Assembly: GCA_011050085.1 (NCBI GenBank)
Contig: DRGL01000064.1
Coordinates: forward strand, 1 to 64,000
DNA: 64,000 bases
Origin: Pricia antarctica
GTDB lineage: Bacteria; Bacteroidota; Bacteroidia; Flavobacteriales; Flavobacteriaceae
Reading direction: 5' to 3'
The notes beneath the pieces were generated by a model that saw nothing but the letters and a program-made list of their open reading frames with translations, made no database searches and was not told the origin of the DNA. The translations under genes were made by a program, and so were the position numbers. This document shows positions 1 through 48,756 of this stretch, one piece after another (position 1 is the first letter of the stretch; each line of letters opens with the position of its first letter).

Positions 1-641
1 GGTTTGATATCATAAGGAGGATAGGTCTCGTTCAACGAGACTAACGTTATGTTATTGGAATTAGGACGTTTTTCAATTTTCTTGACCAGAACCGCATCCT
101 CTAAAACGACAACATACATTTTATTGGGACTTACATCATCGATGTGTTCAACGGCTTTTGCCAAAACCCATTCTCCGGACTTTAGGTTGGGTAACATACT
201 ATCGCCCTCCACTTGAAACCCGCGATAGGTAGCATTTCTAAATTCTGGTATGGGCAAATCGAAAGCGGGTAATTGTTGATACCAGCTGGTATCATGAATA
301 TTTTGTGGATAACCCGCCGCAGCTTTGGCATTTACTAAGACCATATTCTCACGGTCACTAGAATCAACGGTCACCACTTTAGGGATGACACTTGTTTTGG
401 AAGTTTCCAAATACTTGTCCTCACTTTCGCCAAAAAGCCAAAGTGGATTGATTTTAAATTGTTTTAAAAGCTCCAAAACTACCTTGCCAGCAAGTTTGGT
501 CCGGCCCCGTTCTATGTCGGCCGTAGTACTGGAGACACCAAGCATAGCAGCAAACTCAGCTTGGGTATAACCTAAATCCCTTCGGATGTCTGCAAAACGT
601 TTTAAGGTAATTTCATTTTCCATACGTGAAACATTTTTCAT
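1..641 (-). CDS. XRE-family repressor with LexA-like S24 autopeptidase domain (partial, C-terminus off window)
   Basis: A helix-turn-helix of the XRE type covers about residues 11-70 (RRDLGYTQAEFAAMLGVS, then DIERGRTKLAGK). It is followed by an S24/LexA-type peptidase fold. The self-cleavage dipeptide is probably Ala109-Gly110 (KAAAGYP), the nucleophile Ser148 (EGDSMLPNL) and the general base Lys187 or Lys188 (VLVKKIEK); the spacings match LexA. The gene runs off the left edge after about 213 residues and is nearly complete. Start: ATG at 641 (MKNVSRMENE), or the in-frame ATG at 623. It is divergent from a putative DNA-repair radical-SAM operon, with an array of dyads between them, so a DNA-damage-inactivated repressor of that operon and of itself is inferred. 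A phage-type repressor is the alternative, but no phage genes are nearby. Confidence 0.9.
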   Translation of the reverse strand, partial: MKNVSRMENEITLKRFADIRRDLGYTQAEFAAMLGVSSTTADIERGRTKLAGKVVLELLKQFKINPLWLFGESEDKYLETSKTSVIPKVVTVDSSDRENMVLVNAKAAAGYPQNIHDTSWYQQLPAFDLPIPEFRNATYRGFQVEGDSMLPNLKSGEWVLAKAVEHIDDVSPNKMYVVVLEDAVLVKKIEKRPNSNNITLVSLNETYPPYDIK

Positions 642-771
642 TTTAATGAGGTGATAGTCTTCTGACTACAGATTAGAGATATTCTAAAATCTATGTAGGT
701 AATCCCTAATTGAACCCTATAAATGCAATAAAGCCTTACATCTTCAGCACCTTATCACAACACATTGAAAT

Positions 772-800
772 CAAAGATACACATTTTGGATATATTCCAA
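772..800 (-). promoter_or_regulatory. Bacteroidota-type promoter of the XRE/S24 regulator
   Basis: Read on the minus strand, TATCTTTG at 779-772 is an exact match to the -7 consensus TAnnTTTG. A TTG lies at 800-798, 18 bases upstream. The first and best dyad (783-803) sits between and over these two boxes, which would suit autorepression. Transcription would begin around 765, giving a leader of about 125 bases. Confidence 0.55.
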
Positions 801-860
801 AATATTTATTGGATTATTTCCATAATTAGGAATTATTCCATAATTTTGGATTAATTACAA
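783..860. promoter_or_regulatory. Array of four operator-like dyads between the divergent genes
   Basis: Four dyads share one plan: GGA-N5-T(C/A)CA with an A/T centre. Dyad 1 (783-803) has perfect 8-base arms ATTTTGGA and TCCAAAAT around TATAT. Dyad 2 (810-822) is TGGA-TTATT-TCCA. Dyad 3 (828-840) is AGGA-ATTAT-TCCA. Dyad 4 (846-860) is TTGGA-TTAAT-TACAA. Their centres are 23, 18 and 19 bases apart. Dyad 1 overlaps the regulator's promoter, and dyads 3-4 flank and overlap the -7 box of the radical-SAM gene. That they bind the adjacent XRE/S24 protein is inference. Confidence 0.6.
841..848 (+). promoter_or_regulatory. -7 element of the radical-SAM repair operon
   Basis: TAATTTTG matches TAnnTTTG and lies 22 bases before the ATG at 871. 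No TTG is found 17-23 bases upstream; the nearest, at 809-811, is 29 bases away. The promoter may therefore be weak. It is overlapped by the fourth dyad and touches the third. Confidence 0.45.
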
Positions 861-870
861 ATCTGATCCT

Positions 871-2133
871 ATGTCCTTTGATAGAACCAAAGAGAAACTC
901 AATATTTTAGCTGATGCTGCCAAATATGATGTTTCCTGCTCCAGTAGCGGAAGCAAGCGTGTAAATACCAACAAAGGCTTAGGAGATAGTACAGGTATGG
1001 GTATTTGTCACAGTTATACTGAAGATGGTCGATGCGTATCGCTCTTAAAGATCTTACTGACCAATCACTGCATCTTTGATTGCGCCTATTGTGTGACTCG
1101 AAAAAGCAATGACATTAAACGGGCTGCTTTTAAAATTCAAGAGGTAGTAGACCTAACCATCAATTTTTATCGTCGTAATTATATAGAAGGACTATTTCTG
1201 AGTTCCGGGATTTTTAAAAGTGCCGACTACACGATGGAGCGGTTGATTGCCGTTGCCAAAAAGCTACGTACGGAAGAAGGTTTTAACGGCTATATTCATT
1301 TAAAATCAATCCCTGGGGCAAGTGACGAGCTCATGCGGGAAGCGGGTTTATATGCAGACAGACTTTCAGTAAACATTGAAGTCCCAACGATTTCCGGACT
1401 AAAATTATTGGCGCCAGATAAAAAACATGAAGATTTTATTAAACCAATGCTCAAGGTGAAAAATGAAATCATTCAGTTTAAGGAAGAAAAGAAAATTATA
1501 AAAAGCACACCGAAATATGCACCGGCAGGTCAAAGTACCCAGATGATTATTGGAGCAACAGGTGAATCGGATAAGGATATCATGTACTCCGCCTCCCATT
1601 ATTATAAGCAGTATAATATGAAAAGGGTGTATTATTCCGGTTATGTACCGGTAGCCCAAGACGTTCGATTGCCAGCTATTGGCACACAAGTACCCATGTT
1701 ACGGGAAAACCGTTTATATCAAACGGATTGGCTTTTACGGTTCTATGGTTTTGGGGTTCAGGAATTATTGAATACTTCCCACCCAAATCTTGATATAGAC
1801 GTAGATCCAAAACTGGGATGGGCGTTGCGAAACTTGGAACAATTCCCAATAGATATAAATACGGCAGAGAAACAAATATTGGCAAGGGTACCAGGCATAG
1901 GTTTACAATCGGTACATAAAATAATTAACGCCAGACGATTTCGAAAATTGAACTGGGAGCATCTGAAAAATATTGGTATCGCCCTCAACCGAGCCAAATA
2001 TTTTATTGTTTGTGATTCGAGCAAATGGGAGCGAATTGACCGAGAACCCCAAACCATAAAAGGAATGATATTAAAAAATTCTACTGGTAAATTTAGAAAA
2101 GAATATAGCACGCAACTTAACCTATTTACATAA
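871..2133 (+). CDS. Putative DNA modification/repair radical SAM protein (TIGR03916 type)
   Basis: The radical SAM motif C67-x3-C71-x2-C74 (NHCIFDCAYCVTR) would bind the 4Fe-4S cluster that cleaves S-adenosylmethionine. Further cysteines at 23, 46 and 55 (GICHSYTEDGRC) precede it, as I recall for this family. The C-terminal third holds a helix-hairpin-helix (ARVPGIGLQSVHKIINARRF), a DNA-backbone binding element. The family is known by genomic link to DUF4130 and uracil-DNA-glycosylase-like proteins; its reaction is not established. The protein is 420 residues. It heads an operon, with 31 bases to the next gene, and its DUF4130 partner is one gene further on. Control by the divergent XRE/S24 repressor is inferred. 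Confidence 0.9.
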   Translation: MSFDRTKEKLNILADAAKYDVSCSSSGSKRVNTNKGLGDSTGMGICHSYTEDGRCVSLLKILLTNHCIFDCAYCVTRKSNDIKRAAFKIQEVVDLTINFYRRNYIEGLFLSSGIFKSADYTMERLIAVAKKLRTEEGFNGYIHLKSIPGASDELMREAGLYADRLSVNIEVPTISGLKLLAPDKKHEDFIKPMLKVKNEIIQFKEEKKIIKSTPKYAPAGQSTQMIIGATGESDKDIMYSASHYYKQYNMKRVYYSGYVPVAQDVRLPAIGTQVPMLRENRLYQTDWLLRFYGFGVQELLNTSHPNLDIDVDPKLGWALRNLEQFPIDINTAEKQILARVPGIGLQSVHKIINARRFRKLNWEHLKNIGIALNRAKYFIVCDSSKWERIDREPQTIKGMILKNSTGKFRKEYSTQLNLFT

Positions 2134-2164
2134 TCCTAATTCCCCGAAAAAATGCAGCAGCGCT

Positions 2165-3175
2165 ATGACAGAAGATCAAAATTTGACACGTGGGCAAAAA
2201 ACCTACCTAAAACGAATCGTCAATGATTTTAAGGAAAACGCCCATTCGGTATTAAATGAAATTTCAGATTTACAGGAACGTTTAATTCATGGTAGTGATG
2301 ATGAACCCACATTATTCGAACAATTTGAGATCACCAAAGAGCAAATCGAGGGTAAAAAAGTAGAAATCAACTCAATTTATGATTCTATTTTCAAGCCCTC
2401 ACCATCCGGTAAAAAATCTATGGCCTTACAACTACATTCATTTCTAGAGGAATTTGAACAGCAAAAAGATTCCTTGACCCGAATAAGGGTAGACATAGAG
2501 GAATTCAATCATCAACTGTTTGGCCGTTACGACGAACAGGGAAACCAAGTTTTGGGAATAGAGGAAAAGATAAAATGTAAAATAGAAGAATTTGAAAACC
2601 TATACAGCCTGAATTATCAAAAACAGGAAAAATTATTTATCAAAATAGAGGGCTTATTAAAGGGAGCAAGTACCGTGGCGTTGGCCAAAGCTTTTAAAGA
2701 CCACAAAGACTCTTTCCATAAAATGAATATTGTATGGTCGGCCGTTTTTATTATTTCCATTTTGGCTATGATGGGCTTATCCATTTTCGCTTTCATTTAT
2801 GCCAAATTCGAGTTTGATGAAATGTGGAAGTACACCTTGGGCAACCTACCATTTTTGGGCGGTGTAGTTTGGTTGGCTATCTATGCCAGCAAACAACGTA
2901 GTCAGAATAAACGTCTACAACAGGAATATGCCTTCAAGGAAGATGTTGCCAAAATATATTATGGCCTTAAAAAAGAAATCGAAGAATTAGGCGATTCACC
3001 TTTGGGTCAAAAATTAAATGAACGAGTACTTGAAGTGCTTGTTGAAGTAGTGTCATTGAACCCAAGCCAGACCTTGGAAAATAGTTCTCATGATGATAGG
3101 GGTCCTATTATGGAGGCACTACATATTCTTAAAGATAAAATTAACGAAAAACAAGTTCCACTCAATCCTAAATAA
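2165..3175 (+). CDS. Uncharacterised coiled-coil protein with two membrane segments
   Basis: I do not recognise a named family. The 336-residue protein has a charged, helical N-terminal part (about 1-185) rich in Glu/Lys/Gln heptads. Two hydrophobic segments follow at about 189-213 and 225-242, then a second helical stretch (ASKQRSQNKRLQQEYAFKED). There is no signal peptide, so both long arms probably face the cytoplasm with a short membrane hairpin between them. It lies inside an operon, 31 bases after the radical-SAM gene and 7 bases before the DUF4130 gene. That pair is usually adjacent, so a role in the same process, such as tethering or damage sensing at the membrane, is possible but unproven. 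Confidence 0.8.
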   Translation: MTEDQNLTRGQKTYLKRIVNDFKENAHSVLNEISDLQERLIHGSDDEPTLFEQFEITKEQIEGKKVEINSIYDSIFKPSPSGKKSMALQLHSFLEEFEQQKDSLTRIRVDIEEFNHQLFGRYDEQGNQVLGIEEKIKCKIEEFENLYSLNYQKQEKLFIKIEGLLKGASTVALAKAFKDHKDSFHKMNIVWSAVFIISILAMMGLSIFAFIYAKFEFDEMWKYTLGNLPFLGGVVWLAIYASKQRSQNKRLQQEYAFKEDVAKIYYGLKKEIEELGDSPLGQKLNERVLEVLVEVVSLNPSQTLENSSHDDRGPIMEALHILKDKINEKQVPLNPK

Positions 3176-3182
3176 AAATGGT

Positions 3183-3959
3183 ATGGAAAATGCAAAAACA
3201 TTTATCTACGATGGAAGTTTCAATGGCTTCTTGACGACAATTTTTGTAGCTTTTGAAGAAAAGGCTCAGGTTGCTGATATTCAGAAGAACAGTGTCAATC
3301 AAAATGGTCTTTTTTCAGAATCCGAGACTATTTTTACACATATAGAAAAAGCCAAGCGAGTATGGAACGGTATCCAGAAAAAGAATTATACCGCGATGAA
3401 GCAAATTTATTTTGCCTACTTGAGTGAAACACAAGGTATCGAAATATTGTTATATCGCTACATCAGAAAACTGTTCGCGACCCAAGAAGCAATACAATCT
3501 GATTATTCGGATAGCTTAGTTTTAAAAATTAGTCAGCTGACGAAGTCCGTTGGTCGTGAAAAACATCGCATGGAAGCTTTTGTAAGGTTTCAACTGACCC
3601 AAGATGATATTTATTTCGCCAATATTGAACCTGATTTCGATGTACTGCCCCTAATTTCAAAACATTTCCGTTCTAGATATGCGGACCAACAGTGGTTAAT
3701 TTATGATGTGAAGCGACAATACGGCATTTTCTACAATCTTGAAAGGGTAGAAATAGTAGCATTGGATTTGAAAGAAATTTATGCGAACAGCATACATAAA
3801 AAAGATCCTTTTTTAACTGATGAATATAACTTTCAAGATTTGTGGAACAATTACTTCAAGAGTACCAATATCAAATCACGAATCAATACGAAACTACATA
3901 CGCAACAAGTTCCTAAGCGATACTGGAAATATCTTTCGGAGAAAAGAGAAGCCGTTTAA
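3183..3959 (+). CDS. DUF4130 / TIGR03915 putative DNA metabolism protein
   Basis: The product is 258 residues from ATG 3183 (MENAKTFIYDGSFNGF). Family hallmarks are YDGSFxGFL at the N-terminus and VRFQLTQDDIYFANIEPD followed by a FRSRYADQQWLIYDVKRQYG block near residue 180. An ATG about 90 bases upstream in frame would lie inside the previous gene and lacks family similarity, so the later start is preferred. Members are the standard genomic partner of the radical-SAM protein encoded at 871, and in some species are fused to a uracil-DNA-glycosylase-like domain. The biochemical activity is unknown; a role in DNA repair is inferred from context. uvrA begins 78 bases downstream. Confidence 0.88.
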   Translation: MENAKTFIYDGSFNGFLTTIFVAFEEKAQVADIQKNSVNQNGLFSESETIFTHIEKAKRVWNGIQKKNYTAMKQIYFAYLSETQGIEILLYRYIRKLFATQEAIQSDYSDSLVLKISQLTKSVGREKHRMEAFVRFQLTQDDIYFANIEPDFDVLPLISKHFRSRYADQQWLIYDVKRQYGIFYNLERVEIVALDLKEIYANSIHKKDPFLTDEYNFQDLWNNYFKSTNIKSRINTKLHTQQVPKRYWKYLSEKREAV

Positions 3960-4010
3960 AAGTTAGTAGTTTATGGTATTCTCCTTCTTCTTAATTCATT
4001 GTCAAAATCG

Positions 4011-4018
4011 TACCTTTG
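4011..4018 (+). promoter_or_regulatory. Candidate -7 element before uvrA
   Basis: TACCTTTG matches TAnnTTTG and lies 19 bases before the ATG at 4038. No well-placed TTG is present upstream. uvrA may therefore have its own start site as well as read-through from the repair operon. Confidence 0.35.
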
Positions 4019-4037
4019 CCGCCTTGCTGTGGAAAAA

Positions 4038-6908
4038 ATGATAAAATACGAAGAGAACATAGAAGTACAGGGTGCTCGCGTCCATAATCTTAAAAATATA
4101 GACGTCACAATACCAAGGGAAAAATTGGTAGTAATTACCGGGCTTTCCGGTAGCGGAAAATCGTCTTTGGCCTTTGACACTATCTATGCCGAAGGACAAC
4201 GACGCTACATCGAAACATTTTCTGCCTATGCCCGTCAATTTTTAGGCGGATTGGAGCGGCCGGATGTGGATAAAATCGACGGTCTTTCACCTGTTATTGC
4301 CATCGAGCAAAAAACTACCTCGAAGTCCCCAAGATCTACTGTTGGTACAATAACCGAAATCTACGATTTTTTACGTCTTTTATTTGCTCGCGCCGGTACG
4401 GCATATAGCTATAATACGGGTGAAAAGATGGTGAGTTACAGTGATGCTCAGATTAAGGCACTAATTATGGCGGACTTTGACGGCAAAAAAATTAATATTC
4501 TGGCCCCTGTCATTAAATCCAGAAAAGGTCATTATCGGGAGCTTTTTCAACAAATCGGTAAGCAGGGTTTTGTCAAGGTCAGGGTAGATGGTGAGGTAGT
4601 TGATATTACCAAGGGCATGAAAGTAGACCGGTACAAGACTCATGATATCGAAATCGTAATCGATAGATTGATGGTCAAAGACACCGAAGATCTTGATAAA
4701 CGCCTTACCGAATCCATTAATACCGCGATGTATAGTGGTGACGATGTGTTGATGGTGCTGGAAGAAGGCGAATCGACGGTCCGCTATTTCAGTCGTGACC
4801 TGATGTGCCCAACTACAGGAATATCTTACCCAGTTCCCGAGCCAAATACGTTCTCCTTCAACTCCCCAAAAGGAATGTGCCCAAATTGTAATGGTTTGGG
4901 ACATATATACGAAGTAAATGAAAATAAAATCTTCCCAGATAAAAAGTTATCCATCAAATCAGGAGGTATTGCTCCATTAGGTGACTACAAAAAATCATGG
5001 GCCTTCAAACAAATAGAAACTATTGCCCAACGCTATGATTTTAAAATAACCGATCCGATAAATGACATTCCCGATAAAGCCATGATGGTTCTATTGCACG
5101 GTGGACATGAAAGCTTTGAGATTGATTCCAAGACCTTGGGCGTCAAACGCAACTATAAGATAGATTATGAGGGCATATCACACTTTATAAAAAATCAATT
5201 CGAGGAGGCTGGTTCGACTTCTATCAAAAGATGGGCAAAGAGTTACATGGATAAAGTGGTTTGCCCTACCTGCGAGGGTTCAAGGTTACGTAAAGAATCA
5301 CTTAACTTCAAGATTGATGAAAAGAATATAGCTGAATTGGCTCATCTTGACATTTCTGAATTGGCCCAATTTTTCGAAGGATTGAACCAAAGATTGGAAG
5401 GTAACCAGCAAGTCATTGCTGAAGAAATTATTAAAGAAATTAAGACGCGCATCCAGTTTTTATTGGATGTGGGTCTAGATTATCTTTCCTTAAACCGAGG
5501 TTCTAAGTCGCTATCCGGTGGTGAAGCGCAACGCATACGTCTGGCTACACAGATAGGATCACAATTAGTAGGTGTTCTTTATATTTTGGATGAACCTAGT
5601 ATTGGTCTTCACCAACGTGATAATGACCGGTTAATCAAATCTTTGGAAGCACTTCGAGATATTGGAAATTCCGTAATCGTGGTAGAACACGACCGCGATA
5701 TGATTGAAAGGGCGGACCACGTCATTGATATCGGTCCAAGAGCAGGAAGACATGGTGGTGAAATAATATCCGAAGGACTTCCAAAAGACTTGAAGAATTT
5801 CAACACCCTGACCGCGGATTACATTACGGGTGCGAGAGAAATAGCTGTACCGGAAAATCGCAGAAAAGGTAATGGAAAAAAAATAACTCTATCGGGTTGT
5901 ACTGGCAATAACTTAAAAAATGTCACCATCACGATTCCGTTGGGTCAGATGATTGGCGTTACAGGAGTCTCAGGCAGTGGGAAATCCACATTAATCAATG
6001 AAACCTTGTATCCAATTATGAACGCCCATTATTTTAACGGTGTCAAAAAACCGATGCCGTACAAAAAAATTAAGGGTTTGGAACATATTGATAAGGTTAT
6101 CGATATTAACCAGTCACCTATTGGGCGTACACCGCGATCAAACCCTGCTACCTATACTGGGGTTTTTGGAGAGATTCGTTCGCTATTTGCCAAAACTCCT
6201 GAAGCTGCAATTCGTGGCTACAAACCCGGCCGTTTCAGTTTTAATGTGAAAGGGGGACGCTGTGAGACCTGCGGAGGGGGCGGTGTTCGGATTATCGAAA
6301 TGAATTTCTTACCTGACGTCTATGTTGAATGTGAGACCTGCAATGGAAAACGCTTTAACCGCGAGACACTTGAAATCAGGTACAAGGGGAAATCGATATC
6401 AGATGTACTTAACATGACTATTAACGAATCCGTCGAATTTTTTGAACTAATCCCTAAAATACATCGTAAGTTAAAGACCATACAGGATGTTGGATTGGGT
6501 TATGTTACTTTAGGGCAACAATCAACAACCTTATCTGGCGGAGAGGCACAAAGGGTCAAATTGGCGACCGAACTATCGAAACTAAATACAGGAAATACCT
6601 TTTACATTTTAGACGAACCCACCACGGGTCTACACTTTGAAGACATACGGGTACTAATGGAAGTTTTAAACCGTTTGGTTGACAAAGGAAATACGGTTTT
6701 GATTATCGAACACAACATGGATGTCATTAAAATGATGGATTATCTAATCGATATCGGCTATGAAGGTGGTCGCGGTGGTGGTATGGTTGTTGCGAAAGGA
6801 ACACCGGAAGTCGTGGCAAAAGACAAGAAAAGTTACACGGCTGAATATCTAAGAAAAGAGTTATCCCCTAAAAGAATATTAAAAGAAAAGGAACAGGTCG
6901 GAATTTAA
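4038..6908 (+). CDS. uvrA: Excinuclease ABC subunit A (UvrA)
   Basis: UvrA is the damage-recognition ATPase of nucleotide excision repair and works with UvrB and UvrC in the cytoplasm. The 956-residue protein has two ABC ATPase halves. The first Walker A is [10 protein letters not shown] near residue 37 and the second GVSGSGKST near 640; both signatures read LSGGEAQR. Zinc-finger cysteines are visible in [17 protein letters not shown], and CETCGGGGV paired with CETCNGKR. Start: ATG 4038 ([20 protein letters not shown]), which matches the family N-terminus better than upstream codons. It follows the putative repair operon by 78 bases, so the region is rich in repair genes. Length is normal. 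Confidence 0.98.
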
Positions 6909-7112
6909 ATAGGGTTCCGAACACATGGAAAAGGTATACGCTTGGTCTGTTTTATGGAAATAAAATTTAAAGTTGGCAAGCTCCGGTAAGAATGTATGGA
7001 ATATTTGATTTCATATAAAATCCAGCCATCCTAAACATCCATATCCTTGAAAATCTTTTCGAGTTTCATTTTAGATACCTCCGATAAAAGGAATTACAAA
7101 TACACTTAGTAT

Positions 7113-7799
7113 ATGCGAAAAGAACAACATCATAAGGGCTGGAACGAGATAAAAACCAATGACTCCTGGGCCATTTTCAAGATAATGGGCGAATTTGTAA
7201 TGGGATACGAGAAATTGGGCACCATCGGACCCTGTGTTTCAATCTTTGGGTCGGCACGTACCAAACCAGGTGATACCTATTATGAATTGGCAGTCGATAT
7301 CGCCCATAGTATTTCAGAAGCTGGATACGGTGTTATCACGGGCGGTGGACCAGGTATTATGGAAGCCGGTAATAAAGGAGCTAATCTTGCAGGGGGAACA
7401 TCGGTAGGTTTAAATATTGACCTCCCCTTCGAACAACATGATAACCCGTTTATCGACCCTGACAAAAGCCTTGATTTTGATTATTTTTTCGTTAGAAAGG
7501 TAATGTTCGTTAAATATTCACAAGGTTTTGTAGTCATGCCAGGTGGTTTTGGTACATTGGACGAACTTTTTGAAGCTATCACCTTAATTCAAACCAATAA
7601 AATAGAAAAATTTCCTATTATTTTAGTAGGTACCGATTTTTGGTCGGGACTTATGGACTGGGTCAAAAATACCATGTTGGTAGCTAAGAACGTCAGTCCG
7701 CATGATTTAGACCTAATACATATTGTTGATACTAAGGAAGATGTTGTAGAGATTATCGACTCGTTCTACAAAGGTCGTTCGCTAAGTCCTAATTTTTAA
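7113..7799 (+). CDS. LOG family protein (cytokinin riboside 5'-monophosphate phosphoribohydrolase type)
   Basis: The 228-residue protein has the lysine-decarboxylase-like Rossmann fold of TIGR00730. Signature segments are GGGPGIMEAGNKGA (near residue 87) and PGGFGTLDELFE (near 144), which hold the substrate- and phosphate-binding residues. Characterised members hydrolyse nucleoside 5'-monophosphates to base and ribose 5-phosphate; the old name 'lysine decarboxylase' is wrong. The substrate here is not known. Start: ATG 7113. The next gene begins 8 bases after the stop, so the two are probably co-transcribed. Confidence 0.93.
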   Translation: MRKEQHHKGWNEIKTNDSWAIFKIMGEFVMGYEKLGTIGPCVSIFGSARTKPGDTYYELAVDIAHSISEAGYGVITGGGPGIMEAGNKGANLAGGTSVGLNIDLPFEQHDNPFIDPDKSLDFDYFFVRKVMFVKYSQGFVVMPGGFGTLDELFEAITLIQTNKIEKFPIILVGTDFWSGLMDWVKNTMLVAKNVSPHDLDLIHIVDTKEDVVEIIDSFYKGRSLSPNF

Positions 7800-7807
7800 T
7801 AGCTTAC

Positions 7808-10660
7808 TTGAAAAAAATTTCCCCCATACAGCTAGTAATTCTACTGCTTTCCCTGTTTTCATGCATTGGAAAACTATACGCGCAGCATGAAAATACAATT
7901 AGTGCAAACCTTGATGGAGAAACCAAGGAGATAACCATTCAACAGGAATTTCTTTATGAAAATTCTTCCAGTTCAACCTTGAATGAAATTTATTTTAATG
8001 ACTGGGCCAACGCATATGCCAGTAAGAGAACTGGATTGGCCAAACGTTTTGAGGAAGAATTTAAAAAAAGTCTTCACCTAGCAAGAAAGGATGAAAGGGG
8101 GTACACTACCATAATGAGCGTGGTAGACGATGCCTATAGAGGCTTACGATGGGAAAGAACTAAAGAAGAAGATATTTTGAAGGTCGAATTGAATGCTCCG
8201 CTACCCCCTGGAGAATCGACCAAACTCTTTTTTTCATATACGATAAAACTTCCTGAAAATAAATTTACACCTTATGGATACGGGAAAAACAATACCTATT
8301 ATCTAAAAGATTGGTATTTGACCCCTGCCGTTTTTGACGGCGTCTGGCACCTATATTCCAACAAAAACCTCGAAGACCTATACACCGGTATTACGAATAC
8401 CGCTATTAATTTTACTTATCCCGACCAGCTATATCTTGCTTCGAATTTTAGGGTTTTATCTAATACTACGTTACTCAACGGACAAATAGCACAGTTGCAG
8501 GGGGTAAAACAAAGAAACGGCGAACTCATTCTGACGCCCGAAAATCGGTTCACTACCCACGTCACCGAAGAAATGACCGTTATTACAGATCTCCAGGCTT
8601 CCAACTACAGTGAGATTTCCCAAGGCATTTCTATTAACAGGGTCACGCAATTCATAGAAACCCATTTGGGCGAGTACCCTCATGAACAGTTATTGGTAAG
8701 CGAAATTGATTATGAAAAAAATCCGTTATACGGTATCAATCAATTACCATCGTTTATTCGTCCCTACGAGGAACAGTTTCAGTTCGAGATGAAATTCCTA
8801 AAAACTGCCTTGATTAATATGTTGGAAGAAACCTTGTTTCTTGATCCTAGAAAGGAACAATGGTTAAGCGATGCCATTGCAAATTATCTCATGATTGCGT
8901 ACGTAGATGAGTATTATCCCGATCAGAAACTATTGGGCAAACTATCTAAAATTTGGGGTATCCGCAGTTTTAATTTCGCTAAAATCAGCTTTAACGAGCA
9001 ATATCCGCTGCTATATATGCTTGTCGCCCGGAAGAATATTGATCAATCTTTGAGTACGCCAAACGATTCGTTAACCCGATTTAACCAAAAAATAGCGAAT
9101 AAATATAAGGCAGGTCTTGGCCTATCGTATGTAGGGAGCTATATCGGAAAGGAAAAGGTAGATAAAAGCATAAAAACTTTTTATCAATATTATAATCTGA
9201 GCCGTGCAAAAATTCTTGATTTTGAATCTATTTTAAAACGCTCAACGGATATAGACATCAATTGGTTTTTTAGAAGTTATGTACACACCGATTGGAAAAT
9301 TGATTTTAAAATTAAGAAAGTAGAGAAAACAGAAGATTCGCTTAGAGTCACGCTAAAAAATAAATCAGGAACGAATGTACCTATTTCACTATTCGGCTTG
9401 CGCAATGACTCTGTAGTTTCAAAGTATTGGTTTGCAAACATCAAGACTGAAAAAACCGTAACTATTCCCAAAAAGGATGAAAAAAGGTTAGTCTTAAATT
9501 ACGATCAGAGAATTCCAGAATTTAACCAACGTGACAATTGGAAATCCTTGGGTGGATTTTTGTCCAGCAATAAGAAATTGAAATTTACCTTTTTTAAGGA
9601 TGCCGAAAACCCCTATTATAATCAGGTTTTCTACGTACCGGTAATAACGTTCAACCTCTATAACGGATGGACGCCTGGACTACGCCTCTATAACAAGACG
9701 TTTTTAGAAAAGCCATTTATATATGATGTAGAACCCTCGTATTCATTTCGTGAAAAGGCATTAGTGGGTTCCGGTGGTCTAACCTACAGAAAGTATCTCA
9801 GCAAAAGCGGACTTTACGTCGCGAATTATCGAATCGGTGGATCAACCTATCATTTTCAGGAAAACTCAAGATACACCACCATTACACCCTCGATAAGTTT
9901 TGGTTGGCGTCCTGAAAACCTGATATCGAATAAAAGGGATATTCTAACATTTCGATACGTAAACGTTCTTCGAGACAAAGATGAGCGCTTGGGTGATTTC
10001 AAGACCCCCCCGGATTATAGTGTATTGAATGCCAGGTACACCAGTGGAAATCCGGGAATCATCAATTACCTGTCTTGGTTCGGGGATGTGCAACACGCCA
10101 GTGATTTCACCAAAGTAGCCTTTGAACTAGAATATCGAAAGCTTTTCGAAAGTAATCGACAATTCAATCTGCGTTTTTTTGCCGGTAAATTCTTGAGAAA
10201 TAAAACTACCGACTATGCGGACCCTAATTTTTTCAGTTTTGCACTCGATCGCCCTACCGATTATCTTTTCGATTATGGTTATTTAGGACGATCGGAAGAG
10301 TCCGGTATCTATAGCCAACAGATTATAATCGCTGAAGGCGGCTTTAAATCTTTTCTTCCGGAACAATTTCGTTTTGCCAACGATTTCTTGGCCACAGTAA
10401 ATACCAGCGTAAACCTTTGGCGATGGATCGAAGTTTACGGTGATGCCGGAGTGGTTAAGAATAAAGAAATACCCGCTAAGTTCGTTTACGATTCTGGTGT
10501 ACGCCTAAATCTTTTAACGGATTACTTCGAACTATATTTACCTATATATTCCAATAATGGATGGGAAGTATCGCAACCGAATTATGGAGAAAAAATACGT
10601 TTTATTGTTACTTTAAGTCCGAAAACATTAACGGGACTTTTTACAAGAAAATGGTTTTAA
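7808..10660 (+). CDS. M1-peptidase-like domain without HEXXH, joined to a probable outer-membrane beta-barrel
   Basis: The start is a TTG at 7808, followed by a signal peptide (ISPIQLVILLLSLFSCIGKLYAQ). Residues about 25-480 resemble the gluzincin/aminopeptidase N fold: WLSDAIANYL near residue 352 corresponds to the WLxEGxAxY helix of M1 enzymes. The zinc motif HEXXH is absent from the whole protein; the expected helix reads LINMLEETLF. Residues about 600-950 alternate hydrophobic and polar residues with many Tyr/Phe/Arg strands and end in KWF, as outer-membrane barrels do. So this is probably a surface-anchored, non-zinc (perhaps inactive) peptidase-like protein. I believe flavobacterial homologues share this loss. 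It forms an operon with the LOG gene 8 bases upstream. Confidence 0.75.
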   Translation: MKKISPIQLVILLLSLFSCIGKLYAQHENTISANLDGETKEITIQQEFLYENSSSSTLNEIYFNDWANAYASKRTGLAKRFEEEFKKSLHLARKDERGYTTIMSVVDDAYRGLRWERTKEEDILKVELNAPLPPGESTKLFFSYTIKLPENKFTPYGYGKNNTYYLKDWYLTPAVFDGVWHLYSNKNLEDLYTGITNTAINFTYPDQLYLASNFRVLSNTTLLNGQIAQLQGVKQRNGELILTPENRFTTHVTEEMTVITDLQASNYSEISQGISINRVTQFIETHLGEYPHEQLLVSEIDYEKNPLYGINQLPSFIRPYEEQFQFEMKFLKTALINMLEETLFLDPRKEQWLSDAIANYLMIAYVDEYYPDQKLLGKLSKIWGIRSFNFAKISFNEQYPLLYMLVARKNIDQSLSTPNDSLTRFNQKIANKYKAGLGLSYVGSYIGKEKVDKSIKTFYQYYNLSRAKILDFESILKRSTDIDINWFFRSYVHTDWKIDFKIKKVEKTEDSLRVTLKNKSGTNVPISLFGLRNDSVVSKYWFANIKTEKTVTIPKKDEKRLVLNYDQRIPEFNQRDNWKSLGGFLSSNKKLKFTFFKDAENPYYNQVFYVPVITFNLYNGWTPGLRLYNKTFLEKPFIYDVEPSYSFREKALVGSGGLTYRKYLSKSGLYVANYRIGGSTYHFQENSRYTTITPSISFGWRPENLISNKRDILTFRYVNVLRDKDERLGDFKTPPDYSVLNARYTSGNPGIINYLSWFGDVQHASDFTKVAFELEYRKLFESNRQFNLRFFAGKFLRNKTTDYADPNFFSFALDRPTDYLFDYGYLGRSEESGIYSQQIIIAEGGFKSFLPEQFRFANDFLATVNTSVNLWRWIEVYGDAGVVKNKEIPAKFVYDSGVRLNLLTDYFELYLPIYSNNGWEVSQPNYGEKIRFIVTLSPKTLTGLFTRKWF

Positions 10661-10780
10661 ATTTCACTCTATAATATAACTTACCTTTACGGTTGTACAT
10701 CCTTTTGTTTTTTTAAAAGATCCTGCGTAATTTTCTTCTAATTATTGAGTACTTTATGAAAATATCCTTTTGAGCCAGGA

Positions 10781-10811
10781 TTGTTTAAATACTTTTGAAT
10801 CGATATTTTTG
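10781..10811 (+). promoter_or_regulatory. Promoter of the fused E1 dehydrogenase gene
   Basis: TTG at 10781-10783, then 20 bases, then TATTTTTG at 10804-10811: a full match to the Bacteroidota promoter. Its position rules out the upstream in-frame TTG at 10795 as the start codon and supports ATG 10831, leaving a leader of roughly 13 bases. Confidence 0.75.
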
Positions 10812-10830
10812 TCCAAGTCAAAAAAAATTC

Positions 10831-13242
10831 ATGAATCTATCTCCCAAAACAAGCAGTGACATCTCCTTCGAAGACTTCAAGACGCAAATCTTGGACGATT
10901 ATAAATTGGCGGTGCTTAGTAGAACCTGCAGTTTAATGGGAAGAAAAGAGGTTTTGACCGGCAAGGCTAAGTTCGGAATTTTCGGTGATGGTAAGGAGTT
11001 GCCGCAATTGGCAATGGCCCGTTCCTTTAAAAAAGGGGACTTTAGAAGCGGATATTACAGGGATCAGACGTTTATGTTGGCTCTAGGCCTTTTGACACCG
11101 AAAGATATGTTTCATGCCCTCTACGCGACCACTGATATTACAAAGGAACCCATGAGTGCCGGACGTCAAATGGGCGCCCATTATCTCACATATAGCCTAA
11201 ACGAAGATGGTACTTGGCGAGACTTAACAGAACAGAAAAACAGCAGTGCCGACATCTCATGTACCGCAGGTCAAATGCCGAGGCTATTAGGGCTCGCTCA
11301 GGCTTCAAAAATGTACCGCAACCTAAAAAATGTCGATGCTTCCAAATTTTCCAAAAATGGAAATGAAGTAGCTTGGGGCACTATCGGGAACGCTAGCACT
11401 AGTGAAGGAATGTTTCTGGAAACGATTAATGCAGGCGGGGTTTTACAGGTTCCTATGGTTATCAGTATTTGGGACGACGATTATGGCATCTCGGTGCCTC
11501 CGGAATACCATTCAACCAAAGAAGATATCTCTGAAATGTTGAGTGGCTTTCAGCGCAATGAAGACCAAGCTGGTTATGAAATGCTCAAGGTAAAAGGATG
11601 GGATTATACCGCGCTGATGCACGCCTACGAAAACGCTGCCGATATCGCCCGCGATGAGCATGTACCGGTAATCATACACGTTACAGAACTTACGCAGCCA
11701 CAGGGCCATTCCTCTTCAGGATCACACGAGCGCTATAAAGACCACAAACGCTTGGAATGGGAAAAGGAACACGATTGCAATAAAAAATTTAGGGAGTGGA
11801 TTTTAGAGACCGGTATTACCACCGATGACGCTTTAAAGAACATTGAAAAAGCCATCACCAAAGAAGTACGTAGCGCAAAAAAAGAAGCTTGGTCCGAATT
11901 CCTCGCTCCACACAAAGCTTTAAAGAAAACCTTGGTCGCCCTACTTGACCAAGCAGCCTCCGTAAGTCAAAATAGACATTTCATTACCAAGATAAAAAAT
12001 GATCTTATTGCCATTGAAGAACCGATAAAGAAGGAACTCGCCGTAAGTTCTCGTAAAGCATTACGTTATCTCTTAGGTGAAAACTTTCAGGAAAAAGAAG
12101 CCCTTTTGGATTGGACCAATAACTTTCTTGCTGAAACCCAGCCCATGTTCAGTGCTGATCTGTATAGCGAACATTCCAATAAGGCGACCAGTATAACAGA
12201 AGTAAAGCCAATTTACCCTGAAAGCCCTAAGAAAGTAGACGGCCGCATAATTATTAGGGATAATTTTGATAAGTTATTTGAAAAATATCCGAATACTATT
12301 GTTTTCGGGGAAGATACGGGAACCATAGGTGACGTTAATCAAGGATTGGAGGGGCTGCAATCAAAGTATGGAAAACTACGCGTGTCGGATACTGGAATAC
12401 GAGAGACTACCATAATTGGTCAAGGAACGGGTATGGCGCTTCGAGGTTTACGACCCATTGCCGAAATTCAATATCTGGATTATATCTATTATGCGTTGGC
12501 AACCTTGACCGATGACGTTGCTTGCCTCAGATACCGTACGTTTGGCAAACAAAAGGTACCGTTGATCGTGCGTACCAGAGGTCACCGACTGGAAGGAATA
12601 TGGCATTCCGGTTCCCCGATGGGAACCTTGATACATGCTTTACGAGGTATGTATATTCTATCTCCAAGAAATATGACACAGGCAGCGGGCTTTTACAATA
12701 GTTTACTAAAGAGTGACGAACCCGCACTGGTCATTGAAAGTTTAAACGGGTATCGTTTAAAGGAGGACCTACCAATGAATCTAGGGGAGATGTGCACACC
12801 TATCGGCGTAGTAGAGACTTTGAAAAAAGGAAAAGATATTACTTTGGTTTCCTATGGGTCAACTTTGAGGATTGTGTTACAAGCTACGGAAGAACTGAAA
12901 GAAGTTGGAATAGACGCGGAGGTTATAGATGCCCAGACGTTACTCCCTTTTGACATTCGCCATGATACGGTAAAGAGCGTACAGAAAACTGGTCGGATTC
13001 TCGTAATCGATGAAGATGTTCCCGGGGGATGCTCTGCATATATTCTAAACGAAATTATTGAAAAACAGGGCGCCTACAGGTTTCTGGATAGTGCTCCTCA
13101 AACTTTGAGCGCCAAGGCCCATAGACCTGCTTATGGTACCGATGGTGATTATTTTTCCAAACCTAATGTAGAGGATGTTTTTGAAAAAGTCTATAATTTA
13201 ATGAACGAAAGCGATCCAGAAAATTTTCCTGCACTTAGATAA
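10831..13242 (+). CDS. 2-oxoacid dehydrogenase E1, alpha and beta subunits fused (branched-chain type)
   Basis: This thiamine-diphosphate enzyme would decarboxylate branched-chain 2-oxoacids (from Val, Leu, Ile) and pass the acyl group to an E2 lipoyl protein. The 803-residue chain is an alpha subunit (about 40-400, with IGNASTSEGMFLETINAG and the DDDYGISVP loop) continuous with a beta subunit (about 470-800, FGEDTGTIGDVNQGL, HRLEGIWHSGSP, PGGCSAYIL). Such fusions are common in Bacteroidota. Start: ATG 10831 (MNLSPKTSSDISFED), because the promoter overlaps the earlier TTG. E2 and E3 are not in the window. Pyruvate as substrate cannot be excluded. Confidence 0.9.
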   Translation: MNLSPKTSSDISFEDFKTQILDDYKLAVLSRTCSLMGRKEVLTGKAKFGIFGDGKELPQLAMARSFKKGDFRSGYYRDQTFMLALGLLTPKDMFHALYATTDITKEPMSAGRQMGAHYLTYSLNEDGTWRDLTEQKNSSADISCTAGQMPRLLGLAQASKMYRNLKNVDASKFSKNGNEVAWGTIGNASTSEGMFLETINAGGVLQVPMVISIWDDDYGISVPPEYHSTKEDISEMLSGFQRNEDQAGYEMLKVKGWDYTALMHAYENAADIARDEHVPVIIHVTELTQPQGHSSSGSHERYKDHKRLEWEKEHDCNKKFREWILETGITTDDALKNIEKAITKEVRSAKKEAWSEFLAPHKALKKTLVALLDQAASVSQNRHFITKIKNDLIAIEEPIKKELAVSSRKALRYLLGENFQEKEALLDWTNNFLAETQPMFSADLYSEHSNKATSITEVKPIYPESPKKVDGRIIIRDNFDKLFEKYPNTIVFGEDTGTIGDVNQGLEGLQSKYGKLRVSDTGIRETTIIGQGTGMALRGLRPIAEIQYLDYIYYALATLTDDVACLRYRTFGKQKVPLIVRTRGHRLEGIWHSGSPMGTLIHALRGMYILSPRNMTQAAGFYNSLLKSDEPALVIESLNGYRLKEDLPMNLGEMCTPIGVVETLKKGKDITLVSYGSTLRIVLQATEELKEVGIDAEVIDAQTLLPFDIRHDTVKSVQKTGRILVIDEDVPGGCSAYILNEIIEKQGAYRFLDSAPQTLSAKAHRPAYGTDGDYFSKPNVEDVFEKVYNLMNESDPENFPALR

Positions 13243-47211: not shown

Positions 47212-48756
47212 TTACCGTGTTACTGCCATCGCTTTTTCCCTTATAATTTCTGAAACTGGCCGGTTCTCTAAATGGCTCTCGAGCCATGAGATAATATCCA
47301 GATACAAGAAAGCCCTTTTCTCATAGGGATGATTCTCATACTTTTTCAATTCCGTATGCAATTTTTGAAATTCAATTTTTAATTCATGCGGATATATTCC
47401 ACCTAGATTTCGAAGGAACTTTATCATTTCCTTTTGAACGGCATGCAAATCGTTCATTTTCAGCAAGAACTTATACGTACTTTTTAGTTGTATTTCGAGA
47501 TGATAATCCATTCCCGCTTCATAATGTGCAACTAAACTCAAAACCCGTGCAAAACACATCAGGTCTTCACGCATTTTTAAGTTTTTGTTATTTATGATTT
47601 TTTTCAAGTATTGAATACAGGTTTTATTATCACCAATTCCAAAATATAAACAGGCGATTTTATAGTACAACAACATGATATGATGGGCATCAATACGATC
47701 TTTATGTTTATTAATTCCGTATTCGACAATTTTGACAAGATATAATCCCTTCTTAAAAGTGCCTTCGAGAAAATGAAGGTTTAATTTATTGGCATTGACG
47801 TAAAGAAATATCAAAGAGGCTACATTGTCGTTCTTTGGGAAATCTTTGGCCCCAACCACCTTTTCAAGACGTTCAAGGGATTGTTTAAATTGAGATGCAT
47901 ATTTCACATAGAATAGTGATTCAAGTAAATAATGATTTCCTTTTATAAAGAATACGGGATTCAGATAGATTTGATCTTTGTGTTCATAGAATAGATCAAC
48001 CCACTTGCTCGCATATTTATAAGTTGATAAAAAATCTTGAATCAAAAAACTGTACCAGAGATAGGATTTATAAAGCCATAATTTTTCCCGAAAATCCAAA
48101 TCCTCAATCCGATATTTTGGCAAATGACTTTCAAAATAGGCTTTCACCTTTATGTAGTCATTGTCACTTCGCACATAACCTACCTTAAGCATTAATCCGT
48201 AAAGTTGTAAGGAAAGATTAGACAACTTACTGGTCATAACATTCTGGGCCGAGAGCTCTTTTGCCTGTACAGCGAGTTCATCGGCCCGATCGGGAATGCT
48301 TCTGGTAATATATTGGGTCTCGATTATTTTTTCTAGTTCAACGATTTCGTACGCGATGTTCTTTTCTTGATTCTCAATGGCGGTTGCCTTTGCCTTATCC
48401 AAAATTTTAAGGCTTTGCCTATAGAGTCCCTTTTGGTACAAAATGGTCGCAAAGTCAAGCTGCTCACGAATTTGCAATCTAATGGTCTGATTAACAGGGT
48501 TCAATCGTAAGCTGACTAATATTTGTTTGTATAGATGCGCCTTTAGATTAGACAACTGAGCCTTTTTCACAATTCCACTTTCTAAAATTGCTTTTTCGTC
48601 ATATTTCTTTATTTTGTCCATTAGATTAAAAAGCGCCAAAAATTTGGCATCGGTATTTACACCCAACCTACCAACATATAATTTAAATTGACGTTTTTCA
48701 GATTTTGAAAGTGATTTCACCAAAACGAACAAGGCATCCCTATGCGCATTTGTCAT
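47212..48756 (-). CDS. Uncharacterised 514-residue helical-repeat protein
   Basis: No signal peptide or membrane segment. It is almost entirely helical, with repeated pairs of amphipathic helices resembling TPR (TILYQKGLYRQSLKILDKAKATAIEN, YYKIACLYFGIGDNKTCIQYLKKIINN, FLYLDIISWLESHL). The N-terminus is LFVLVKSLSKSEKRQFKLYV. I recall similar proteins only as Bacteroidota hypotheticals. It probably scaffolds proteins in the cytoplasm. It is divergent from leuA with 229 bases between starts; Lys, Leu and Tyr are very common. Confidence 0.8.
   Translation of the reverse strand: MTNAHRDALFVLVKSLSKSEKRQFKLYVGRLGVNTDAKFLALFNLMDKIKKYDEKAILESGIVKKAQLSNLKAHLYKQILVSLRLNPVNQTIRLQIREQLDFATILYQKGLYRQSLKILDKAKATAIENQEKNIAYEIVELEKIIETQYITRSIPDRADELAVQAKELSAQNVMTSKLSNLSLQLYGLMLKVGYVRSDNDYIKVKAYFESHLPKYRIEDLDFREKLWLYKSYLWYSFLIQDFLSTYKYASKWVDLFYEHKDQIYLNPVFFIKGNHYLLESLFYVKYASQFKQSLERLEKVVGAKDFPKNDNVASLIFLYVNANKLNLHFLEGTFKKGLYLVKIVEYGINKHKDRIDAHHIMLLYYKIACLYFGIGDNKTCIQYLKKIINNKNLKMREDLMCFARVLSLVAHYEAGMDYHLEIQLKSTYKFLLKMNDLHAVQKEMIKFLRNLGGIYPHELKIEFQKLHTELKKYENHPYEKRAFLYLDIISWLESHLENRPVSEIIREKAMAVTR

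Follow-up and report, generated by a model that had tools for sequence, protein, structure and literature searches.

A shared array of predicted LexA boxes between a non-canonical lexA gene and a radical-SAM/DUF4130 operon in Pricia antarctica

In the window analysed here, a 64,000-nucleotide stretch of Pricia antarctica contig DRGL01000064.1 taken from base 1, a gene for a LexA-type repressor lies divergent from an operon encoding a radical S-adenosylmethionine (radical-SAM) protein and a DUF4130 protein. We consider it probable that the gap between them is an autoregulated SOS promoter region common to lexA and to a DNA-lesion-processing operon, an assessment that covers the regulation and the enzyme pair. 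The predicted damage-inducible control is strongly supported by LexA-type residues in the repressor, by boxes shared between both genes, by the divergent position of lexA and by box clusters at other SOS genes. This control is mostly anticipated in print (PMC8565304); new here are the shared operator array, the missing glycosylase, a six-cysteine signature, a small protein found in relatives and a weak fold lead. Arranged along the first 4 kb are, in order, the XRE/S24 repressor gene (minus strand, its 3' end cut by the contig start), a 229-bp gap, the radical-SAM gene, an open reading frame (ORF) of 336 amino acids, the DUF4130 gene and uvrA. The features that carry the argument are the following.

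3..641, minus strand: non-canonical LexA-type repressor (XRE/CI-type helix-turn-helix and S24 peptidase), predicted from Pfam domains and relatives; 3' end cut
871..2133, plus strand: radical-SAM protein TIGR03916/COG4277, from family and domain scans; CX3CX2C motif at C67/C71/C74, N-terminal C23, C46-H47 and C55, C-terminal helix-hairpin-helix
3183..3959, plus strand: DUF4130/TIGR03915 protein, from a family scan; no uracil-DNA glycosylase (UDG) domain, model weakly resembling the DHH-DHHA1 fold
788..798, no strand: LexA box 1, GGATATATTCC, from the GGA-N5-TCC scan and relatives
811..821, no strand: LexA box 2, GGATTATTTCC, from the same scan and relatives
829..839, no strand: LexA box 3, GGAATTATTCC, from the same scan and relatives
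841..848, plus strand: candidate -7 promoter element TAATTTTG, matching the Bacteroidetes consensus TAnnTTTG; well conserved beside box 3
772..779, minus strand: possible lexA -7 element TATCTTTG; uncertain, same consensus

The three boxes in the gap go beyond chance, since about 0.05 GGA-N5-TCC sites would be expected in its 229 bp and the array is conserved in relatives; across the whole window 13.15 sites are expected and 9 were found. One of these, at 47390, falls within an ORF and was not considered further. As relatives we used the best 80 of 200 stretches fetched with the radical-SAM protein, which together with the window give 81 loci. Counted over 170 bp, three sites are present in 49 of these loci, four in 23, two in 6, one in 2 and none in 1, so that 72 of the 81 carry at least three, and the spacing of 22-23 and then 18 is kept in 70. 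Allomuricauda/Flagellimonas loci often have a fourth site, another 23 bp away. Within the P. antarctica genome, two site starts exactly 23 bp apart occur once, at the lexA/radical-SAM locus. The lexA gene is divergent from the radical-SAM gene in 79 of the 80 relatives at a distance of 97 to 716 nt (the exception is L051, and the count includes L041, where lexA is a fragment at a contig end). At the radical-SAM-side end of the conserved block TAATTTTG fits TAnnTTTG, the Bacteroidetes -7 element, while a mirror element on the lexA side is uncertain, as it would lie a few bases from the lexA start in compact loci.

The repressor combines an HTH_3 domain (PF01381, E 2.3e-7) with Peptidase_S24 (E 4.1e-13), both above the Pfam gathering score. 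Its translation probably starts at Met7 (position 623), because matches in relatives mostly begin there. The initial annotation had read A109-G110, S148 and K187/188 as the residues of a self-cleaving repressor, and in 79 aligned repressors, window included, conservation reaches at least 97% at each of A109, G110, S148, K187 and K188. A homology search of the genome found one homolog of the repressor at E<=1e-4. By domains, residues and sites the protein is classed as a non-canonical LexA of the Bacteroidetes, GGA group. PMC8565304 distinguishes two groups among the Bacteroidetes repressors that combine a CI-type helix-turn-helix with an S24 domain and control the SOS response; one group, mainly in Flavobacteriaceae, uses GGA-N5-TCC sites and the other CTAA-N5-TTAG sites. 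For one species of the GGA group the same paper reports site binding and mitomycin C induction of the predicted targets, recA excepted, and it had already predicted in 2021 that the COG4277 radical-SAM gene is under SOS control. The P. antarctica protein shares with that group the domain make-up, the A-G, S and K residues and GGA-N5-TCC boxes, which precede not only its own gene but also dinB-dnaE, SRAP and the COG4277 gene. It differs in that lexA and the COG4277 operon are immediate divergent neighbours with a fixed box array between them, an arrangement that the sections of PMC8565304 consulted do not describe.

Sites elsewhere in the genome are consistent with a wider regulon. The pattern GGAWWWWWTCC occurs at 150 places, as against 73 for the reversed control, which means that many single sites must be chance; clusters and neighbouring genes were examined among 50 places listed out of the 150. 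Among these 50, two sites 19 bp apart stand 295 bp before a gene for a DinB-type polymerase that is followed by DnaE, and an array of three boxes spaced 24/19 precedes an SRAP gene (L189, 3850-3903). Both dinB-dnaE and SRAP are on the GGA-regulon gene list in PMC8565304. The geometry of the SRAP array is nearly that of the lexA array, 23/18. One further pair of sites (L190) and 15 single-site loci (L083-L097), for which ORFs alone were inspected, showed no gene recognised as an SOS gene. The damage-inducible control that the initial annotation had proposed is thus backed at the level of sequence by the repressor residues, the three boxes, the divergent lexA in 79 of 80 relatives and the clusters at SOS genes, and the idea itself is already present in PMC8565304.

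The radical-SAM protein scores 665.6 bits against TIGR03916 (cut-off 343.5, E 3e-200) and the DUF4130 protein 272.3 bits against TIGR03915 (cut-off 112.25, E 4e-81). Pfam finds Radical_SAM above and HHH_3 just below the cut-off in the former and DUF4130 alone in the latter (3183-3959). Both families of the TIGR03916/TIGR03915 (COG4277/DUF4130) pair are therefore present above their curated cut-offs, in the same order and on the same strand; the P. antarctica locus differs in the 336-amino-acid gene in between and in having no UDG domain. A radical-SAM protein with a helix-hairpin-helix divergent from the repressor and a DUF4130 partner with uvrA next (NF001503, 1385.6 bits) had been recognised beforehand; the 336-amino-acid gene in the operon had not been listed. 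We also agree with the earlier statement that the chemistry is unassigned.

TIGR03916 is over its cut-off in 93 of 296 genomes sampled across the phylum. We examined 40 phylum-wide loci. Of these, 20 belong to the same order, the same class or the wider phylum, and one of the 20 is a partial gene that scores under the cut-off; another 15 come from the same family, and the last 5 from a single distant family that accounts for most of the remaining phylum-wide matches. Radical SAM and DUF4130 occur together in all 80 relatives, in 39 of the 40 phylum-wide loci and in 10 of 10 further loci, each set having been fetched with one gene or the other. The enzyme pair is a conserved unit, because DUF4130 is present in 39 of the 40 but lexA adjacent in two, and lexA adjacency characterises one clade of Flavobacteriaceae. 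Of the initial suggestion that repressor and pair might stay together across Bacteroidota, the part concerning the pair stood, and the part concerning lexA held for the close relatives but not phylum-wide.

The AlphaFold model of the DUF4130 protein, built with 40 sequences, has a mean predicted local distance difference test (pLDDT) score of 79.1 and a predicted template modelling score of 0.74; the conserved last 26 residues are modelled with low confidence. In a VIA-align comparison the 26 best rows are DHH-superfamily proteins, judged by title or known family, and span approximately residues 1-216. They include a PAP phosphatase (Z 9.0, root-mean-square deviation (rmsd) 4.8, 192 residues aligned), RecJ bound to DNA (Z 8.1, rmsd 4.6, 188 aligned) and Cdc45 relatives, against a background of 7-8 stated for the tool; absence of a family from these results carries no meaning. 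On this basis DUF4130 might be a divergent RecJ/DHH-type nuclease or phosphodiesterase, or else an inactive protein akin to Cdc45, whose task would be to trim DNA or hold it for the radical-SAM enzyme, and its N-terminal YDG(S/T)xEG(L/F)L resembles DHH motif I. We regard this as unlikely, though worth keeping in view: the best Foldseek chains reach template modelling scores of 0.38-0.39 with none at E<=0.001, the Z scores of 8-9 are near background, and hhalign against RecJ and NrnA profiles gives E values of 0.34-0.91, which do not improve on those of unrelated controls (L171_23 was left out as a chance ORF). No DHH motif is conserved in DUF4130; the letters DHH appear in 2 of 28 sequences, at differing places. 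Compared with the DHH-DHHA1 proteins RecJ, NrnA and Cdc45, the modelled overall fold is weakly similar, whereas motif and sequence-profile similarity are lacking, and we treat the likeness as a lead only.

For the radical-SAM protein we surveyed cysteines in 131 loci from Bacteroidota, Bacillota and Proteobacteria, of which L123 is partial and without the region concerned. In all 130 sequences that hold it, C23, C46, H47 and C55 are invariant together with the CX3CX2C motif (C67, C71, C74). No other invariant cysteine follows CX3CX2C, and the only other recurring one, C381, is a cysteine in 108 of 131. The three invariant N-terminal cysteines suggest an auxiliary iron-sulphur (Fe-S) cluster or metal site. 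LipA, TYW1 and MiaB are radical-SAM enzymes with N-terminal auxiliary clusters and likewise have three invariant cysteines before CX3CX2C; unlike them, the TIGR03916 protein has a different cysteine spacing and a helix-hairpin-helix, and its cluster is deduced from the cysteines. The photolyase SplB uses a hydrogen-donor cysteine after CX3CX2C. An SplB-like enzyme that reverses a UV photoproduct by hydrogen-atom transfer is the role supposed for DUF4130-linked radical-SAM proteins in PMC3765255, and the combination of radical SAM with a helix-hairpin-helix as well as the SOS boxes would fit it. However, the donor cysteine has no universal counterpart, C381 being the only candidate, and a solved-structure search with profile A2 gave no photolyase at E<=10, finding instead weak matches to HydG-like and ThiH chains over the radical-SAM core, and helix-hairpin-helix proteins of the RuvA/ComEA type over the C-terminal part. 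The invariant C23, C46 and C55, with no other invariant cysteine, argue for an auxiliary metal site over photolyase-type chemistry, which we consider improbable.

A different view of the operon comes from its published name. PMC8565304 calls it COG1573-COG4277, a putative base-excision system with a UDG; UdgX enzymes have their own literature (PMC10776899 and PMC10359453). In all five alpha-/betaproteobacterial loci fetched (L151-L155) a UdgX-type domain is indeed fused C-terminally to DUF4130, and GEQPG and a KRRIH-like stretch are present in each of the four fusions inspected (in one according to a pattern match, in three by reading). These fusion operons share with the P. antarctica locus the order of radical SAM and then DUF4130, and differ from it by the UdgX-type domain at the DUF4130 C terminus. 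A domain profile built from the proteobacterial fusions matched none of the 121 Bacteroidota loci (window, 80 and 40) at E<=1e-4, either fused or elsewhere in the stretch. As this profile misses the genome's own Ung and a short PF03167 protein, both proteins and the fused domains were also run individually as queries, and at E<=1e-3 these gave no match in the 121 loci either. The two UDG-superfamily genes of the genome lie on other contigs. A uracil base-excision operon in which the second gene is a uracil-DNA glycosylase (COG1573) is thus largely refuted for this clade and has very little probability left; the COG1573 label, we infer, probably comes from the fused proteins. On these sequence comparisons the glycosylase is an optional attachment, and radical SAM and DUF4130 are the core. 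Separately, a single GGA-N5-TCC site in the same genome (L098, 2119-2129) lies at least 73 bp upstream of the short PF03167 gene; it may be chance.

Least credible of all is that the repressor is a local or phage-derived switch for itself and the adjacent operon rather than an SOS regulator, for although its CI-like domain make-up would allow this, as would the fact that most other GGA-N5-TCC sites inspected in the genome are single and beside genes not recognised as SOS, the box clusters before dinB-dnaE and SRAP, the status of the protein as sole homolog in the genome at E<=1e-4 and the function reported for its group in PMC8565304 speak against it.

The following model would accommodate a LexA-controlled lesion-processing operon. 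In the undamaged cell the non-canonical LexA would bind the three observed GGA-N5-TCC boxes between both start codons, as the published group suggests, and repress lexA and the operon. Upon DNA damage a RecA filament would trigger LexA cleavage at A109-G110 by S148 and K187, residues that are present, and both the lexA side and the operon side would then be expressed. The radical-SAM protein would hold a core [4Fe-4S] cluster by CX3CX2C and may use C23, C46, C55 and perhaps H47 to bind a further, auxiliary Fe-S cluster or metal. It would act jointly with DUF4130, with the helix-hairpin-helix and the conserved tail of DUF4130 keeping the two on DNA, and the pair may perform radical chemistry on DNA at a damaged base or an abasic site. 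A damaged pyrimidine or its abasic product appears the most likely substrate, because the alpha-/betaproteobacterial DUF4130 is fused to a UdgX-type glycosylase domain; by this analogy we propose, tentatively, that the reaction proceeds by radical chemistry and has a damaged pyrimidine or abasic site as its target. Somewhat more speculative still is that TIGR03916-DUF4130 represents a new class of SOS-induced radical-SAM DNA-lesion enzymes, with an auxiliary metal cluster at C23/C46/C55 next to the SAM cluster, a divergent DHH/RecJ-like partner that presents DNA, an optional UdgX capture domain that is dispensable in Bacteroidota and, in some Flavobacteriaceae, a small basic protein as an accessory.

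Several observations weigh against this picture. On the regulatory side, the two phylum-wide loci with an adjacent lexA both carry the GGA array, and one of them (L130) is probably the same genome as L011. A CTAA-N5-TTAG site lies 27-81 bp upstream in 7 of the 40, so that an SOS array or box of either type is found in 9; neither the GGA array nor a CTAA-N5-TTAG box is present within 500 bp upstream in the other 31. Single GGA sites, seen 187-432 bp upstream in 8 of the 40, were not counted as SOS boxes. Moreover, recA of the published GGA-group species was not induced, according to PMC8565304. On the enzyme side, the structure model of the radical-SAM protein is poor (mean pLDDT 60.7, shallow alignment), which leaves the cysteines by themselves as the ground for the auxiliary site. 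The role in base damage is drawn from a gene fusion in other bacteria, and no attached glycosylase is present in two Bacillota loci, in two further Bacteroidota plasmid loci or in L157, a record labelled Acinetobacter.

Between the radical-SAM and DUF4130 genes, 25 of the 80 relatives carry an ORF of 46-75 codons whose product has an isoelectric point of 9.4-11.2.

Small-ORF loci: L013, L019-L022, L024, L025, L027-L029, L047, L050, L052, L053, L061, L063-L066, L070, L072, L074, L075, L077, L079

The core of the small protein reads R-x-AIL-x-LGYDFV-x-FKSK-x-KKSL. The pairwise ratio of nonsynonymous to synonymous substitution rates is 0.03-0.41 where computable, so the small ORF behaves as a real gene under purifying selection. 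Its presence requires 8 changes on the radical-SAM tree, compared to 21.8 in shuffles. The small-ORF alignment omits the non-homologous L036, L037, L041 and L060 and uses the second ORF for L063 and L077; alignment A4 omits L021 and L077. A profile made from the 25 small ORFs found no further member in the retrieved stretches, and the two members scanned had no Pfam match over threshold. At E<=0.01 the protein was found in 4 of 149 family genomes, two in the same gap and two as weak matches with no pair in the stretch, and it is absent from the P. antarctica genome at this threshold. In L063 and L077 the small ORF is followed, still within the gap, by another of 87 codons that is alike in the two genomes.

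Two further genes complete the first part of the window.

2165..3175, plus strand: 336-amino-acid protein, from its ORF; coiled-coil-like by eye, hydrophobic stretch at about 186-217
4038..6908, plus strand: uvrA, 78 bp downstream of the DUF4130 gene; start by our own reading

The hydrophobic stretch of the 336-amino-acid protein lies around residues 186-217, and it is the N-terminal half that looks coiled-coil-like. Family-library and Pfam scans recognised no family in it, and none of the 80 related loci contains a match. A search of the other 148 family genomes gave distant homologs in 3, and the 3.7-3.9 kb stretches around these homologs show no radical-SAM or DUF4130 gene. The gene would seem to be a lineage-specific insertion in the operon. 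The uvrA ORF was called as 3999-6908 with a TTG start, and Met at 4038 is the likelier start. No GGA-N5-TCC site precedes uvrA in the scan of the 64-kb window. It lies within 250 bp of the pair in 15 of the 80 relatives and has a match somewhere in the retrieved stretch in 58; its adjacency to the pair is not general. An Rfam scan of 1-12000 gave no match at gathering scores, and sigma-70 and terminator scans stayed at chance level. PADLOC at E<=0.01 gave nothing for the radical-SAM, 336-amino-acid and DUF4130 proteins and two weak matches for the repressor. Among viral contigs 3 stretches matched a pattern and none encodes a relative. In a phage collection 10 records matched, and eight of the nine besides L157 are unannotated faecal records, so phages may still carry the pair. 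L157, named an Acinetobacter phage, has glyS, glyQ and a gene named aidB beside the pair and is probably bacterial chromosome.

Taken together, these data place a widespread, DNA-repair-linked enzyme pair with no assigned reaction under predicted boxes of an SOS repressor, and they correct the view that in Bacteroidota this pair comes with a uracil-DNA glycosylase. Mutation of the cysteines C23, C46 and C55 would tell photolyase-type chemistry apart from that of an auxiliary cluster. With its fixed spacing, the box array between the divergent genes may serve as a compact model for how a CI-like repressor took over SOS control.

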